From positions 3,421,001 to 3,485,000 of the forward strand of contig CP031740.1 of assembly GCA_022701275.1 (NCBI GenBank): a stretch of 64,000 bases of DNA, given 5' to 3'. This document shows positions 29,666 through 36,013 of this stretch, in pieces (the first letter of the stretch is position 1; the number at the start of each line of letters is the position of its first letter). The position numbers were made by a program, and so were the translations under genes. Under the pieces are notes generated by a model. That model did not search any database and had not been told where the DNA came from. It saw only the letters and a list, made by a program, of their open reading frames with translations. The DNA is from Microcoleus vaginatus PCC 9802 (lineage in GTDB: Bacteria > Cyanobacteriota > Cyanobacteriia > Cyanobacteriales > Microcoleaceae).

Positions 29666-29872
29666 TTAAAACACCTCATCTTCGATTCCCAGCCACCATT
29701 CCCCCAGATTCATTAAATCTTTGTGAATGTCCGTAAGTTCTGTCATATACTCTTCAGCAGAAATCTCCGATCGCCTTTCTTGCAATTTTTTCAGCCGCAG
29801 TTGTACCAACAGCCAAGGTTTGGAAATCCCGTCAGTTGCTTGGATATATTTGGCTAAATCTTTGCTGTCCAT
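29666..29872 (-). CDS. Small hypothetical protein
   Basis: 68 residues, MDSKDLAKYIQATDGISKPWL..., all-helical and acidic at the end (GEWWLGIEDEVF). The sequence is protein-like and the frame is clean. Similar short acidic proteins occur next to accessory genes in cyanobacteria, but I cannot name a family. It converges with the gene at 29154-29624. Confidence 0.55.
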   Translation of the reverse strand: MDSKDLAKYIQATDGISKPWLLVQLRLKKLQERRSEISAEEYMTELTDIHKDLMNLGEWWLGIEDEVF

Positions 29873-30157: not shown

Positions 30158-31480
30158 TTACCTATAATCGGAAGTCTGAATATTCTTCAACTTCGCAGCA
30201 TATTTCATGCCGTATTCCGGGCGACAGAAGCGATCGATTTGAGACTCAAAGAAAGCTCGATTTGCCTTCAAATGCTTTGGATTTGGGTCATCTAAAGGAT
30301 ACAAAAGAGCAGTCCGCAAAGCTTGAATCACCGCCGAAGTAACGCAGTACATCGATCGCTGAAAAGTCACCCCAATTTGATTGAGAATATCATCTTCGCC
30401 GCGACAGCGCTGTTTGTAGAAATCCATCAAATAAGGCGGCAGGAAATGCAGCATATCTTGTGCTAGCAAAGTTGGCGGAATGCCCGCCGTACCTACCGGG
30501 AATTTGTCGGCATAAAGCACTCCGTAGTGGAAGTCTTTTTGATCGTCAGGAACTTCCTTAGCTTGAGCGTTGTAAGATTTGGTTCCTCGGAACGGCGAAG
30601 TGCGATAAAATACAGCTTCCACGTAAGGTAACGCTGCTTCATAAAGCCAAGTGAAACCTTTAGATTTGGGGATGATTTCGTAGGTTTCGCCGTCGATTTG
30701 AACGTGGTGGTAAATCGGACGACCGGCGATCGCAAATATGCCATTTACGAGGAACTCCATCGCCTGCGGGACTGTCGTAATTTTCCCTTCGTCGTACAAG
30801 TCGGAAACCTCAAAAAACACCGGCGCCATGACTTCCCAGAATAAACCGAGATTGCTGTAATAAGACATTTGGCGGCACTGTTCTAAAAACATTTCTGGAA
30901 ATGCTTTGTGAAGTGCCAGCATGAACGGGTTTTTTTTGAAGTAAGCTTTAATTGCCCGATCGGCATTAGCCTTATATTCGTCACTGTCCAAATAAGGATC
31001 GAATTGATTGGTCGGCACGTACAAGCCCCGGTGCCAAAGCATTGACCTCATGCACTCTTCGGCAAATTCCATGTTAATGCGATCGTGCCACAAATGGTGA
31101 AACAGCCGCGGCATTTTACCAGTTTCACCCTTCTGCATGAACTCCAAAAGTTCCGGGTGAACACTTCCAGTCCCGCGCCAAATTCGCAAATCTGCACCGT
31201 CGCCTGCATAGTGATTTTGCAAGTCTAAATACTCCTGGGGCAAGAAGTATTTAAAGAAAGGAAGTGGGTGTAAAAATACCCGTTCGGCGATGTAAAGTAA
31301 ATCCCGCCAGTAGAAATCCATCGGCACTGCGTAAGCTTTCCAGATAGCGATGATTTGCATCAGATTTTCCGGCGTATCTGGAATCATCGCGCCGCCAGCT
31401 TCCAGCCTGTGAATTACTTCGGCAAATTGGTGTTTGGAAGGAGGTAGTTTAGTTGCTGGTTTATTAGGGGTTTGTACCAT
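30158..31480 (-). CDS. CO2 hydration protein (ChpX/ChpY, CupB/CupA family)
   Basis: 440 residues, no membrane segment. Conserved blocks such as FHHLWHDRINMEFAEECMRSMLWHRGLY and the C-terminal DRFCRPEYGMKYAAKL are those of the cyanobacterial CO2-hydration protein that docks on specialised NDH-1 complexes and converts CO2 to bicarbonate in a vectorial, energy-driven reaction at the thylakoid. Order here is ndhF, carbonic anhydrase, ndhD, then this gene, all on the minus strand. The length suggests CupA (high affinity), but the absence of a fasciclin-type cupS gene downstream suggests CupB; I leave this open. A clear AAGGAAG Shine-Dalgarno precedes the ATG. Confidence 0.93.
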   Translation of the reverse strand: MVQTPNKPATKLPPSKHQFAEVIHRLEAGGAMIPDTPENLMQIIAIWKAYAVPMDFYWRDLLYIAERVFLHPLPFFKYFLPQEYLDLQNHYAGDGADLRIWRGTGSVHPELLEFMQKGETGKMPRLFHHLWHDRINMEFAEECMRSMLWHRGLYVPTNQFDPYLDSDEYKANADRAIKAYFKKNPFMLALHKAFPEMFLEQCRQMSYYSNLGLFWEVMAPVFFEVSDLYDEGKITTVPQAMEFLVNGIFAIAGRPIYHHVQIDGETYEIIPKSKGFTWLYEAALPYVEAVFYRTSPFRGTKSYNAQAKEVPDDQKDFHYGVLYADKFPVGTAGIPPTLLAQDMLHFLPPYLMDFYKQRCRGEDDILNQIGVTFQRSMYCVTSAVIQALRTALLYPLDDPNPKHLKANRAFFESQIDRFCRPEYGMKYAAKLKNIQTSDYR

Positions 31481-31548
31481 TGTTTCTTCCTTTGATTGAC
31501 TGAATCTAAATATTTTGAATTATTGCAAAAAGCTGCGATTCTTTAACT

Positions 31549-31648
31549 GGTTCCCAGGATATTCCTGGGAACCGATATCCAGGTCCGCGAGCCGTAAAAT
31601 TGGAGGCAGAGCCTCCGGAGCTGCGTTACCAGGCTCTGCCTGGTAACG
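31549..31648. repeat. Three-hairpin repeat module, dispersed family B, copy 1
   Basis: Three hairpins in order: GGTTCCCAGG/CCTGGGAACC (31549-31573), GGAGGC/GCCTCC (31602-31616) and CGTTACCAGG/CCTGGTAACG (31624-31648). The same three occur in reverse order, as the reverse complement, at 45265-45376. It sits between ndhD and the CO2 hydration gene. Confidence 0.92.
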
Positions 31649-31657
31649 AGTAGATTG

Positions 31658-33211
31658 TTAGTCTGCAGAGGCGGACTTCGTTTGTGTAGACGCGATTTCC
31701 ATATCCGAGTGTTCTAGGGGATAGCTAATAGCAACTTGGGTATTTCTGTCCGTCGGCAGAGTAGCAACGATCGCATTTGTAGTTGATTCGCTCCACTTGA
31801 GCAGCCAAGCAGGTTGAATCCCCAACACAAAAATGATGCCCGCCAAAACCAGCGCCGGCATATTTTCACCAAACGTAACTGGAGGGTAGTAAGCCGTGGC
31901 ATTGTCCAACTTGCCAAAACAGGTGCGGTTGAGCAGAATTACAAAGTAAACTGCTGTTAACCCCGAGGCTAAAATGCACAGTAAAGTTGGAATTGGAAAT
32001 GCTGAAAAACTACCTTGAAAGACTAAAAATTCAGCAATAAAACCCACCAAACCCGGAATACCGGCGCTTGCCATGCCGCCCAAAACTAACAGGGAACTGG
32101 CAGTGGGTAAACCCCGCATCGGGTTCATCAAACCGTTGAGCACGTCCAAATCCCGCGTGCCAACTTTGGTTTCGATGATGCCTACCAAATAAAACAGCAA
32201 AGCTAAAATTAATCCGTGGCTTACCATTTGCCCGACAGCACCGATTAATGCCAGCTTCGTACCCGCCGCGCAGGCAACGAGGATGTAGCCCATATGTCCG
32301 ATCGAACTATAGGCTACCATGCGCTTGATATCTTTTTGGGCGATCGCGCTCAAAGCACCGTACATCACGCTCACAGTCCCGATAATCGCTAAAGCGGGGG
32401 CTATAATCGACCAAGTTTCGGGAAACATCTGCAAGCCAAACCGCACTAAACCGTAAGTTCCCAACTTCGCCAGAATCCCTCCCAGCAAAATTGCTGTTGC
32501 TGGCGAAGCTTCGACGTAAGCATCAGGCAGCCACGTATGCAGCGGCACTAAAGGAATTTTAATTCCCAACCCAATTAGTACAATTGTTAGCAGGATCAAT
32601 TGCGTGTTCAAGGGCAATTCTTGAGTGGTAATCGCAGTGTAATCGAAATTTAAAGACCCACTCAGCCAAGCCACACCCAAAAATGCTGCCAGCACTAAAA
32701 GTCCCGAAACTGCCGTGTAGATCAAAAACTTCATGGCAGCGTATTCCCGCTGCTTTCCGCCCCAAATCGCAATCAACAGGTAAAAAGGAATTAATTCTAC
32801 TTCGTAAAACAGTACAAACAGCAGCAAATTTTGAGACATCAAAGCTCCGGCAATACCAGCATTGATTAGCAAAATCAAAGCGTAGTAAAGCTGGGGGCGC
32901 TCCATCTTTTCGCCCGTGCCGTAAATGACTAATAGCGTCAGCAAAGCACTTAAAACCAGCAGCGGCAAGGACAAACCGTCAATGCCCAAGTTGTAGCTCA
33001 AACCTAATTGTGGAATCCAAGGCAAATATTCTTGAAATTGCAGTCCCGAATTGGCTGGATCGAATTGAGTCAGCAGCCAGATATTCAAAATGAAAATAGC
33101 TGCCGCAAAAGCCGAGGCTATTGAACGCAGACGCATCCCATTGATATTTCCCGGCAGGAACCCGACTACCGCAGCGCCCAACGCGGGCAACCAGAGCAAG
33201 GCACTAAGCAT
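31658..33211 (-). CDS. ndhD: NDH-1 proton-pumping subunit NdhD (CO2-uptake type, D3/D4)
   Basis: 517 residues, about 14 membrane helices of the Nqo13/NuoM antiporter-like family. Motifs include the transmembrane-helix-5 region LLLFVLFYEVELIPFYLLIAIWG with the conserved glutamate, LGLGIKIPLVPLHTWLPDAYVEASP with the conserved lysine, and KDIKRMVAYSSIGHMGY. It pumps protons in the thylakoid NDH-1 complex. Neighbouring ndhF and the CO2-hydration gene identify it as the D3/D4 form used for CO2 uptake rather than the D1/D2 respiratory form. Start at 33211 by alignment of the MLSALLWLPALGA opening; no clear Shine-Dalgarno. Confidence 0.94.
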   Translation of the reverse strand: MLSALLWLPALGAAVVGFLPGNINGMRLRSIASAFAAAIFILNIWLLTQFDPANSGLQFQEYLPWIPQLGLSYNLGIDGLSLPLLVLSALLTLLVIYGTGEKMERPQLYYALILLINAGIAGALMSQNLLLFVLFYEVELIPFYLLIAIWGGKQREYAAMKFLIYTAVSGLLVLAAFLGVAWLSGSLNFDYTAITTQELPLNTQLILLTIVLIGLGIKIPLVPLHTWLPDAYVEASPATAILLGGILAKLGTYGLVRFGLQMFPETWSIIAPALAIIGTVSVMYGALSAIAQKDIKRMVAYSSIGHMGYILVACAAGTKLALIGAVGQMVSHGLILALLFYLVGIIETKVGTRDLDVLNGLMNPMRGLPTASSLLVLGGMASAGIPGLVGFIAEFLVFQGSFSAFPIPTLLCILASGLTAVYFVILLNRTCFGKLDNATAYYPPVTFGENMPALVLAGIIFVLGIQPAWLLKWSESTTNAIVATLPTDRNTQVAISYPLEHSDMEIASTQTKSASAD

Positions 33212-33323
33212 AATGTGTGAAGTGAAGAGTGAAGAGTGAACAATCTATTTTGCAGCCTCTTGTCTTTGATAATTTGAGAGTTTAGATGTTAAACTTTTTC
33301 CCAATTATCAATCCCAAATTTCC

Positions 33324-34043
33324 TCACGACTCAGAAAGAATAGTGACTGTTCCCGTGTCTAAATCGTAATAGCCACCAACAACTTTCAGTTTATTCTCCT
33401 CAATTAACTTAGAGATAACTGGAGATGCTTTCAACTTGTTAGCTTGGAGCACAACATTGGCTTTTGAAGCATTTTCTAGCTTGTCGCCTGTTTGGTTTTT
33501 CGAGCTTTCTACAGCAGGCTTAATCGCGTCGAGCAAACTGCCAATCTGGCCGGGAACTTGAGCTCCTTTGATGGTTGCGTCTACCGCACCGCAACGTTTA
33601 TGCCCGATTACCACAAGCACTTTTGCTCCCAATACCAGCGTGCCAAATTCCAGGCTGCCAATTTCTTCGGGAGTAGCAACATTTCCGGCTACGCGACAGA
33701 CAAATAAATCTCCCAATCCTTGATCGAAGATAATTTCCGAAGGAAAGCGGGAATCTGCACAGCCGAGAATAGCAGCAAAGGGTTTTTGAGTTTTGGCAAC
33801 TTCGGTGAGGCGCCCAAAGTCTTGGTTGGGACTTTGGCGTTTTTTGTCAACAAACCGCTTGTTGCCGTCCATTAACTTTTGCAAAGCTGCATCGGGAGTC
33901 GAGTCATTTTGAGCAATTGCCGGTTCGGGTGCAGCCAAATCAGCGCCTGCTCGTGCTGCGAGTATTCCTGTACCAATGGCTCCGGCGACAAATTTGAGGG
34001 AATTGCGGCGGGAAAGATTGAATTGTCTGTTGTTTGAGTTCAT
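33324..34043 (-). CDS. Beta-carbonic anhydrase with Tat signal peptide
   Basis: 239 residues. The N-terminus has a twin-arginine signal (SRRNSLKF followed by VAGAIGTGILAARAGA and an AxA-type end near EPAIAQ), so the enzyme should be exported folded, to the lumen or periplasm. The mature part shows the beta-CA zinc ligands and dyad: CADSR, then HKRCG. It interconverts CO2 and HCO3-. It sits between ndhF and ndhD of the CO2-uptake cluster, 104 bp from ndhF and 112 bp from ndhD, all on one strand. This suggests it serves the same pathway, comparable to the EcaB-type carbonic anhydrase described as thylakoid-associated with Cup proteins (knowledge; equivalence is inference). An AAGG element precedes the ATG. 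Confidence 0.93.
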   Translation of the reverse strand: MNSNNRQFNLSRRNSLKFVAGAIGTGILAARAGADLAAPEPAIAQNDSTPDAALQKLMDGNKRFVDKKRQSPNQDFGRLTEVAKTQKPFAAILGCADSRFPSEIIFDQGLGDLFVCRVAGNVATPEEIGSLEFGTLVLGAKVLVVIGHKRCGAVDATIKGAQVPGQIGSLLDAIKPAVESSKNQTGDKLENASKANVVLQANKLKASPVISKLIEENKLKVVGGYYDLDTGTVTILSES

Positions 34044-34147
34044 TTATTTTGCCTTATTTGAAAGAGTTGGAAATCTTTGTGCCAGACTTCATGTTTTTAA
34101 GATTTTAGATTAAAACTGTCACCTAAAATCTTAAATTTTATATAGTT

Positions 34148-36013
34148 TTACCCGCCCACAATCAGCGACAGGCGAGCTAGCAAAGGCCAGCTTACCAGCA
34201 GTCCCAAAAGTGCTACTCCGAACAGAATTGTCAGGGCGTAAAACTGAGTTTGACCCGTAACGTTGTATTTGAGGCTCTGCCCGCCGAAAACCGTTGCAAA
34301 ACCGATTAAGTTCACGAATCCGTCAACAATATTGCGATCGACCCAGGAGATGATTTGCGAAACCAAACCAACTGCAAATATCACTGTCACGCGGTAAAGT
34401 TTGGCAGTGTAAAAGTCGTAGGCAAAAAAGTCTTGCAGGGCTTGAGAACCGATTCGCACCGGTTTTTCCCATTTCTCGTTCAGGTAAACAAATGCTCCTG
34501 CACCGATGCCGATCGCGGTTGACAAAACTAGCAGTCCAGTGGCGGTATAATTCAAACTTGCCCCAGGCAAGACCTGCCACGTCGCCAGCAAGTGCGGAAC
34601 GTGCAAAGTAAAGCCCATTAAAACAGTCATGGGCAAGATAAAAGGCCAGTGAACTTCCGGCGAACGTTCGGTCATTTGCTTTGGTTTGCCGCCGAAAACT
34701 AAACCGAAGACGCGCACCAAGCCAAAAGCAGTGACGCCGTTTACAAACAGCACTATTCCTAACAAGAAAGGGTGAGTTTGCCAAAGCCCGGATGTGAAGT
34801 CTTCTAAAGCCCAGAAACAGCCGAAGGGCGGCAGTCCCACCAATCCAGCGCTACCGACAATAAACGATATCGCTGATATTGGCCGCTTTCCCCACAAACC
34901 GCCGAGAGCTCGGACATCCTGAGTGATGCTGTTCCAAACTACCGAACCGATGCTCATCACCAGCAAACCCATTGCGAAGGTGTAGGCAAATATCAATGTC
35001 AGGGCTGTCTGGGCTTGTCCGGTACCGACGGCGATAAATACTAAGCCCATGTAAGAGCTGACTATATAGGAAAGCGTGCGCTTGATGTCGATTTGGGCGA
35101 TCGCAATTAATGAAGCACCCACCGCTGTCGCAGCACCCACAGCAATAGTTGTCTTCAGTCCGATCGGCGACAAAGCAATCACTGGCTGCAACTTAATCAA
35201 AATCCAAGCACCAGTTTCCACAACTACGGTGTTCCGCAAAATCGTCGCCGGCAGCGGGCCTTCCATCGCCTCATCTAGCCACAGGTGCAAGGGAAACTGA
35301 GCACACTTACCCATCGGGCCGGCAATCAAAGCTAAAGTCAGCAGTGTCGCTACAGTGGGGTCAAGCTTTGCAGTCTGGGCCCAAACAGCCAACTCGTCAA
35401 AATTCCAAGTTCCAGCCAGCGGCAGAATGGCGACTACTCCCATCAGCAGAAATAAATCTCCCACCCGCTTTGTTAAGAAAGCGTCGCGGGCTCCTGTCAC
35501 CACCAAAGACTGATTGAACCACAGCCCGACTAGCAGGTAAGTACCCAAAGTCAGAACTTCCAAAATCATGTAGCTGAAGAACAGGGAATTGCACAGTACC
35601 AAGCCACACATCCCGGCTTCAAACAGCCCCATCAGAGAAAAGAACCGAGCCCAGCCCCAGTCCATTTCCATGTAACCGAAAGCATAAACCTGCGCCAGCA
35701 AGTTCAGTCCGGTAATCAAAACAGTCGCCCCGACGGTGACAGCAGAGATTTCAACGGGAATGGTTAAGTCTAAACCTGCTACATTCAGCCAAGGAATAAA
35801 CTGGTGTTGCGCCGGTTGGTTCCAGATAGCTGTCAGGGCTATGACGGCGTGTAAGAAAGCGAACAAGGTTAATATGGCGTTCACGTAACCGGATGGTCTT
35901 GGCCCCGTGCGGCGGGTAACTGCTGGAAACCACAGCATCGACAGAACTCCGCCGATGAGTGGATAGCAAGGTATAAACCAAACCGTCTGGAGTAAGATTT
36001 GAGCCATTGGCAT
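34148..36013 (-). CDS. ndhF: NDH-1 proton-pumping subunit NdhF (CO2-uptake type, F3/F4)
   Basis: 621 residues, about 16 membrane helices of the NuoL/Nqo12 family, including FFSYMILEVLTLGTYLLVGLWF, MGKCAQFPLHLWLDEAMEGPLPATILRNTVVVETGAW with the conserved lysine/histidine/glutamate residues, and QIDIKRTLSYIVSSYMG. The hydrophobic C-terminal part continues past the channel region as in NuoL. First gene of the minus-strand cluster with carbonic anhydrase, ndhD and the CO2-hydration gene, so it is the F3/F4 form of the CO2-uptake NDH-1 complex in the thylakoid membrane. Confidence 0.94.
   Translation of the reverse strand: MPMAQILLQTVWFIPCYPLIGGVLSMLWFPAVTRRTGPRPSGYVNAILTLFAFLHAVIALTAIWNQPAQHQFIPWLNVAGLDLTIPVEISAVTVGATVLITGLNLLAQVYAFGYMEMDWGWARFFSLMGLFEAGMCGLVLCNSLFFSYMILEVLTLGTYLLVGLWFNQSLVVTGARDAFLTKRVGDLFLLMGVVAILPLAGTWNFDELAVWAQTAKLDPTVATLLTLALIAGPMGKCAQFPLHLWLDEAMEGPLPATILRNTVVVETGAWILIKLQPVIALSPIGLKTTIAVGAATAVGASLIAIAQIDIKRTLSYIVSSYMGLVFIAVGTGQAQTALTLIFAYTFAMGLLVMSIGSVVWNSITQDVRALGGLWGKRPISAISFIVGSAGLVGLPPFGCFWALEDFTSGLWQTHPFLLGIVLFVNGVTAFGLVRVFGLVFGGKPKQMTERSPEVHWPFILPMTVLMGFTLHVPHLLATWQVLPGASLNYTATGLLVLSTAIGIGAGAFVYLNEKWEKPVRIGSQALQDFFAYDFYTAKLYRVTVIFAVGLVSQIISWVDRNIVDGFVNLIGFATVFGGQSLKYNVTGQTQFYALTILFGVALLGLLVSWPLLARLSLIVGG

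Follow-up and report, generated by a model that had tools for sequence, protein, structure and literature searches.

Cyanobacterial CO2 uptake by the NDH-1MS complex, encoded in Synechocystis by the ndhF3-ndhD3-cupA-cupS operon (sll1732-1735) and represented by the Thermosynechococcus (T. elongatus) structure 6TJV, has been proposed to use a CO2 tunnel that leads from the lumen through NdhF3 to CupA (PMC6981117). A 2026 review notes that only structural data underlie the lumen hypothesis and that biochemical evidence is needed (PMC13249358). EcaB (Slr0051) of Synechocystis PCC 6803 is a beta-carbonic anhydrase (CA) with a twin-arginine translocation (Tat) signal that has been described as active, located mostly on thylakoids and associated with NDH-1MS/MS', the CupA and CupB complexes (PMC9283085, PMC10096703, PMC11360081); earlier reports are cited as having assigned it to the periplasm and detected no activity (PMC9865033). 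In Microcoleus vaginatus PCC 9802, a 64,000-nucleotide stretch of contig CP031740.1 (positions 3,421,001 to 3,485,000, referred to below as the window) carries, between ndhF3 and ndhD3, a gene for a beta-CA of the export type, an arrangement that recurs across cyanobacterial genera. The idea of hydration on both sides of the membrane, with such a CA as a partner of the complex, is not new, having been published for Synechocystis EcaB. In the literature titles, beginnings of abstracts and genome papers on CO2-concentrating genes that were examined, a CA gene located between ndhF3 and ndhD3 was not mentioned, which does not prove its absence from print.

The four genes, ndhF3, the CA gene, ndhD3 and cupA, are all encoded on the minus strand (Table 1). 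An earlier note, made from the sequence of this DNA, had listed them in this order as ndhF, beta-CA, ndhD and a CO2-hydration protein; family matches agree with that list, and the coordinates of all four open reading frames (ORFs) are exactly the same. The note had left open whether the cluster is of type 3 or type 4, and comparison with PDB entries decides for type 3 (NDH-1(3)/NDH-1MS, the low-CO2 type), as judged from protein similarity. The best match of NdhF3 is 6tjv_F from NDH-1MS (759 bits versus 255 for 6hum_F from NDH-1L), NdhD3 matches 6tjv_D with 649 bits versus 303 for the NDH-1L chain 6hum_D, and the sole match of CupA is 6tjv_P (726 bits). His129 and Arg134 of CupA align with the conserved Zn ligands His130 and Arg135 of 6TJV, and the equivalents of the Arg37, Tyr41 and Glu114 network are conserved in NdhF3 (alignment read against PMC6981117). 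Type 4 identity is excluded by these matches, by the catalytic residues and by the presence of a separate type 4 cluster, ndhF4-ndhD4-cupB, at C1:6.663-6.669 Mb of the genome (G000; 6.70 Mb, one contig). That second cluster lacks a beta-CA, since PF00484 matches only two genes genome-wide, both elsewhere: the window CA and a standalone export-type CA at 0.83 Mb that is 49% identical to it. Because both are of the export type, no CcaA-type carboxysomal CA was seen in this genome. A fasciclin (cupS-type) gene next to cupA was not found in the window, and the genome has five fasciclin matches elsewhere.

The complete zinc ligands of the CA (C-A-D-S-R and H-x-x-C, the latter as HKRCG) and its twin-arginine motif, both pointed out in the earlier note, are evident in the sequence. 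The protein starts with MNSNNRQFNLSRRNSLKFVAGAIGTGILA and has a cleavage-like site, A-I-A|Q, that was read by eye. Its AlphaFold2 model has a mean predicted local distance difference test score (pLDDT) of 83.8, with residues 1-35 below 50. The closest solved relative by sequence is Rv3588c of M. tuberculosis (2A5V, 116 bits), which also gives the best fold match of the model (2a5v; template modeling score 0.77 by query length, root mean square deviation 1.5). By sequence and predicted fold, the window CA is thus an ordinary beta-CA. Identity with CcaA was rejected, as the window CA has a leader, groups with export-type CAs and scores 47 bits against 5swc (CcaA) versus 116 bits against Rv3588c.

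The same features are found throughout the CAs located between ndhF3 and ndhD3: the twin-arginine pair is present, and the zinc motif is intact, in all 47 such rows (45 distinct sequences from 45 loci). A loose lipobox pattern occurs in 2 of these 47 rows, and no lipobox is seen in the window CA. Among unlinked CA rows, a set drawn from the fetched loci, 39 of 41 have the twin-arginine pair; of the 22 non-cyanobacterial relatives, 5 have it and 17 do not. Judged by their N termini, the cyanobacterial members of the family look Tat-type and most non-cyanobacterial ones do not. Positions that separate the linked CAs from 26 standalone rows include C116, E127, G134, K141, V209 and Y225.

The earlier note had allowed that this gene order might be found only here. 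A scan of genome contigs for similarity to the window CA returned 72 loci, of which 47 have cyanobacterial titles, and the ndhF-CA-ndhD order was present in 40 of the 47, with cup following within the stretch in 36 of these 40. The other cyanobacterial loci comprise one with ndhF-CA at the contig end (L013), two with the CA after a cupB (L044 and L046) and four with no link (L033, L043, L048 and L049), two of which lie near a contig end; matches to ndhF, ndhD or cup were absent from all 25 non-cyanobacterial CA loci. Since the scan starts from the window CA, the fraction of 40/47 is biased toward this order, and CupA loci were therefore sampled independently of the CA, one locus per genus in 80 genera from approximately 150 best rows (a Cup match was obtained in 358 of 388 genomes). 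The sample omits seven listed genera, either because the match was near the contig end or to keep to the sample size. A CA between ndhF3 and ndhD3 was found in 12 of the 80 genera, distributed over seven family codes, including one case of a tandem CA pair and one of a truncated CA. A thirteenth genus (G020) has two CAs, of which one immediately follows cupA and the other immediately precedes ndhF3. Uniqueness of the order to the window genome is rejected by both samples, and the placement of an export-type beta-CA inside a CO2-uptake NDH-1 cluster, as proposed in the note, is borne out by the order, the family matches and the recurrence.

No export-type CA was detected at CupB loci in 60 genera, sampled as one locus per genus among the rows listed (a match was obtained in 324 of 388 genomes). 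This sample does not include G020 and G053, already seen at the CupA loci L096 and L131, and with G020 the count becomes 1/61; in 8 of the 60 stretches, cupB is seen without ndhF4-ndhD4. The difference between 13/80 (CupA) and 0/60 (CupB) gives a Fisher p of 0.0006, with genera that are not independent of each other, and the 47 CA-similarity, 80 CupA and 60 CupB loci overlap partly in genomes. The recurrence of the order is more than chance. Tandem export-type CA pairs occupy the ndhF3-ndhD3 slot in Planktothrix UBA8402 (L040, 5456-6983) and occur in a genome of the same family as the window genome (G366; L104, 5125-6640). In Tychonema bourrellyi (L010), ndhF3-CA-ndhD3 is present and no cupA match is found within the next 6 kb. 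In L025, a large ndhD ORF turned out to extend into N.

The CA tree was built from 94 rows, among them six non-cyanobacterial ones, and omitted L099, L192, three long non-cyanobacterial sequences and three near-copies. The earlier CA set had been reduced by 14 Microcoleus-group loci, L001/L002 and the own-genome loci L075-L086, with four CAs of <180 aa (including L117) set aside and 8 of 22 non-cyanobacterial rows kept. One clade of 62 rows (support 100/99) consists of 44 inserted CAs, two Chamaesiphon-type CAs located after cupB and 16 unlinked or contig-edge CAs. A second clade of 20 rows (100/99) combines 17 standalone CAs, two CAs of G020 and the divergent CA of G212, and the standalone CA of the window genome falls outside both. 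A single clade of all linked CAs is rejected (approximately unbiased test, p 0.0001), and the very large likelihood gap, 471, indicates that the constrained tree search may be imperfect. Linkage of CAs to CO2-uptake clusters arose more than once. In Chamaesiphon-type loci, a sister CA copy lies directly after cupB (L044, 7992-8684; L046, 2729-3378), and L041, which comes from one assembly with L043, has the CA between ndhF3 and ndhD3. The L096 locus of G020 shows the run ndhD4-cupB-sbtA-sbtB-CA-ndhF3-ndhD3-cupA-CA, in which both CAs are of the export type and belong to the second clade; sbtA and sbtB were recognized by PF05982 and PF00543, respectively, and NCBIfam gave no close name. In G212 (L202), the CA is divergently oriented beside ndhF3. 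The after-cupB, G020 and G212 linkages are separate routes to the same neighborhood. Leaderless CcaA-like genes, labeled so from their starts and low scores, lie after cupB in G289 (L239, 8299-9132) and upstream of ndhF3 in G015 (L099, 8648-9418, minus strand).

The explanation that we favor, and hold to be somewhat probable, is that the EcaB-like exported CA works with NDH-1(3) on the membrane face opposite to CupA, plausibly making lumenal CO2 for the NdhF3 channel. The CA would fold in the cytoplasm with its zinc, be exported by the Tat system and come to sit opposite CupA, beside the complex whose NdhF3 forms the proposed CO2 tunnel, where it would interconvert bicarbonate and CO2. Given the acidity of the light-driven lumen, the reaction would on balance run from bicarbonate to CO2, which could then pass through NdhF3 to the zinc site of CupA and return as cytoplasmic bicarbonate as protons are pumped. 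The CA and NDH-1(3) as a pair might recapture inorganic carbon leaking into the lumen. An exported CA encoded beside ndhF3, taken together with the tunnel proposal, fits such a relay of lumenal CO2 production and cytoplasmic hydration by CupA. We put forward only tentatively, as a possibility that may well prove wrong, the stronger proposal that the operon CA is the lumen-side partner located where the NdhF3 tunnel opens, that two enzymes act as a relay across the membrane in CO2 uptake, and that the CA-ndhF3 neighborhood is the genomic trace of a CupA supplied by the lumen instead of the cytoplasm.

Several observations weigh against a lumenal partnership, and those on export and compartment are best considered together with its main rival. 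The latter holds that the CA is periplasmic and merely shares low-CO2 induction with NDH-1(3), bringing bicarbonate and CO2 into equilibrium at the cell surface, with diffusion replacing the CO2 that is drawn down. The NCBIfam Tat profile TIGR01409, which matches 12 of 31 members of the CA family alignment, has no match to the window CA even at E<=1, so its Tat assignment rests on the twin-arginine motif. An export-type leader suits the periplasm too: in PCC 7002, Tat leaders were used to direct baits to the periplasm (PMC12341915). EcaB itself has been reported from the Synechocystis periplasm by proteomics (PMC10096703, PMC9865033), and the reports on its activity conflict (PMC9865033). Leader hydrophobicity, which separates lumenal from periplasmic proteins exported by Sec (PMC12341915), was tried as a guide to the compartment and gave no separation, as it did not differ between linked (35 distinct) and standalone-clade (20) CAs (p 0.59); the published rule was made for Sec and not Tat leaders. 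Word searches of main texts gave no hit for "carbonic" in two PCC 7002 compartment-proteome papers (the presence of such a gene in PCC 7002 was not looked at) and none for EcaB in a Synechocystis proteome map. In G020, the export-type CAs also adjoin the sbtA-sbtB bicarbonate transporter pair. The periplasmic explanation nevertheless appears unlikely to us, if still a serious contender, as most EcaB is described as located on thylakoids and interacting with CupA/B (PMC10096703, PMC11360081), and the usual slot of the CA is inside the NDH-1(3) cluster beside ndhF3, with transporter neighborhoods not surveyed for comparison. As for low-CO2 induction, the upstream 400 bases were examined in the window and 12 other loci; an NdhR-like site (motif ATAG-N8-CTAT) is absent from all 13 stretches, and a looser form of it was found in 3 of the 12 (L034, L145 and L139).

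The remaining objections come from the distribution of the CA. In 67 of the 80 CupA-sampled genera, a type 3 cluster has no export-type CA in it or directly after it, which makes the CA dispensable for the type 3 complex; these 67 include L115, with an export-type CA approximately 9 kb away, and L099, with the CcaA-like gene described above. On a quick NdhF3+CupA tree of 108 loci, the inserted CA appears or disappears 15 times, with at least 12 changes forced by starred branches. A search of 68 junctions without a CA call revealed that the empty ndhF3-ndhD3 junction of L165 (G283) still contains approximately 24 codons from the 3' end of a CA gene (identity of up to 95% over 21 residues); a weak candidate remnant in L120 had a best E of 0.0002, compared to 0.016 for the best hit in the reversed-sequence control. 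The CA of L117 (G048), outside the 47-row set, lacks its first half, including the leader and the first zinc motif. L165 and L117 show that losses occurred, these being the only two cases in which the direction of change is established. So the CA arrangement is old or spread early, and was lost repeatedly. Such patchiness (12/80 genera, repeated loss) could be taken to mean that the gene is an accidental insertion without function that persists because the operon is expressed, which we regard as very improbable given the intact zinc motif and twin-arginine leader in 47/47 rows, the same slot in seven family codes, the separate linkages from another CA clade and the absence of such genes at 60 CupB loci. 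It is also improbable, if slightly less so, that a lumenal CA serves photosystem II (PSII) or lumen pH, for example proton removal with bicarbonate, and that the operon gives it low-CO2 timing only. Such a role has been described for the algal lumenal CA CAH3 (PMC10096703), and standalone export-type CAs do exist without NDH-1 neighbors. However, the location between two NDH-1(3) subunit genes and the sister copy after cupB in Chamaesiphon indicate that the CA follows CO2-uptake modules; PSII neighborhoods were not surveyed.

The four genes of the window may be transcribed together. They are separated by gaps of 104, 112 and 177 bases, and a terminator between them was rejected, as none of the three gaps contains a terminator-like site on the minus strand, the reading strand; on both strands of the region, 11 such sites were found versus 8.5 expected by chance. 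No Rfam element reached the gathering score in the window. The ndhF3-CA gap could form an A+T-rich hairpin (folding was done on the window gap, and other loci were compared by eye). A similar sequence is visible in L003, L010, L015, L017 and L020 and is not seen in L021 or L024; the L017 copy has a paired change, and in L015 (gap before 8001) the sequence appears to be duplicated. The ndhD3-cupA gap (31560-31650) contains, by eye, short palindromic G+C-rich repeats. Downstream of cupA, a 68-aa ORF has 84-97% identity in 14 other fetched loci; its identification as cupAR is unsupported, as CupAR has been described as a protein of 127 aa with two membrane spans (PMC11456788). Since there is no same-strand ORF of >=90 aa within 2.3 kb, no 127-aa cupAR-like gene follows cupA.

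Table 1. Features of the ndhF3-CA-ndhD3-cupA region, in window coordinates
Feature	Coordinates	Strand	Description
ndhF3	34148..36013	-	621 aa; distal antiporter-like subunit with proposed CO2 tunnel; TIGR01960 ndhF3_CO2, 955 bits
ndhF3-CA gap, A+T-rich hairpin	34044..34147	-	15 pairs in predicted fold; not followed by a T run in the direction of reading
Export-type beta-CA	33324..34043	-	239 aa; PF00484 Pro_CA, 135 bits; CADSR and HKRCG motifs; SRRNSLK leader
CA leader, residues 1-44	33912..34043	-	Twin-arginine motif, hydrophobic stretch, A-I-A cleavage-like site; from sequence
ndhD3	31658..33211	-	517 aa; proton-pumping subunit; PRK07363 NdhD, 871 bits
cupA (chpY)	30158..31480	-	440 aa; cytoplasmic CO2-hydration subunit; TIGR01964 chpXY, 749 bits
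68-aa ORF	29666..29872	-	285 bases downstream of cupA; no Pfam match

Strains that carry an export-type CA within the cluster encoding the tunnel subunit offer a direct genetic handle on whether the CO2 used by CupA comes from the cytoplasm or the lumen, with close relatives that have lost the CA as natural controls. The arrangement also provides an evolutionary argument, independent of Synechocystis biochemistry, for an exported CA and NDH-1(3) working together.

Among known systems, the NDH-1MS operon shares with the window its three core genes, their order and the catalytic residues of CupA and NdhF3, and the window differs from it by the export-type beta-CA between ndhF3 and ndhD3 and by having no cupS-type gene; cupS is outside the core NDH-1MS definition used in PMC5472144 and PMC9120777. 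The alignment with M. tuberculosis Rv3588c excludes the leader, beginning at residue 48 of the window CA, and CcaA belongs to the same beta class but has no export leader itself. EcaB shares with the window CA both the beta class and the twin-arginine leader, and its reported association with NDH-1MS/MS' (PMC9283085, PMC11360081) agrees with the linkage within the operon seen here; the window CA differs in being encoded within the operon and in having no lipobox, the lipid attachment site of EcaB being described as only putative (PMC11360081). The designation EcaB-like refers to class and leader, and such CAs form at least two clades in cyanobacteria. The window cluster is a variant of the NDH-1(3) operon that includes an EcaB-like CA, and not a new system.

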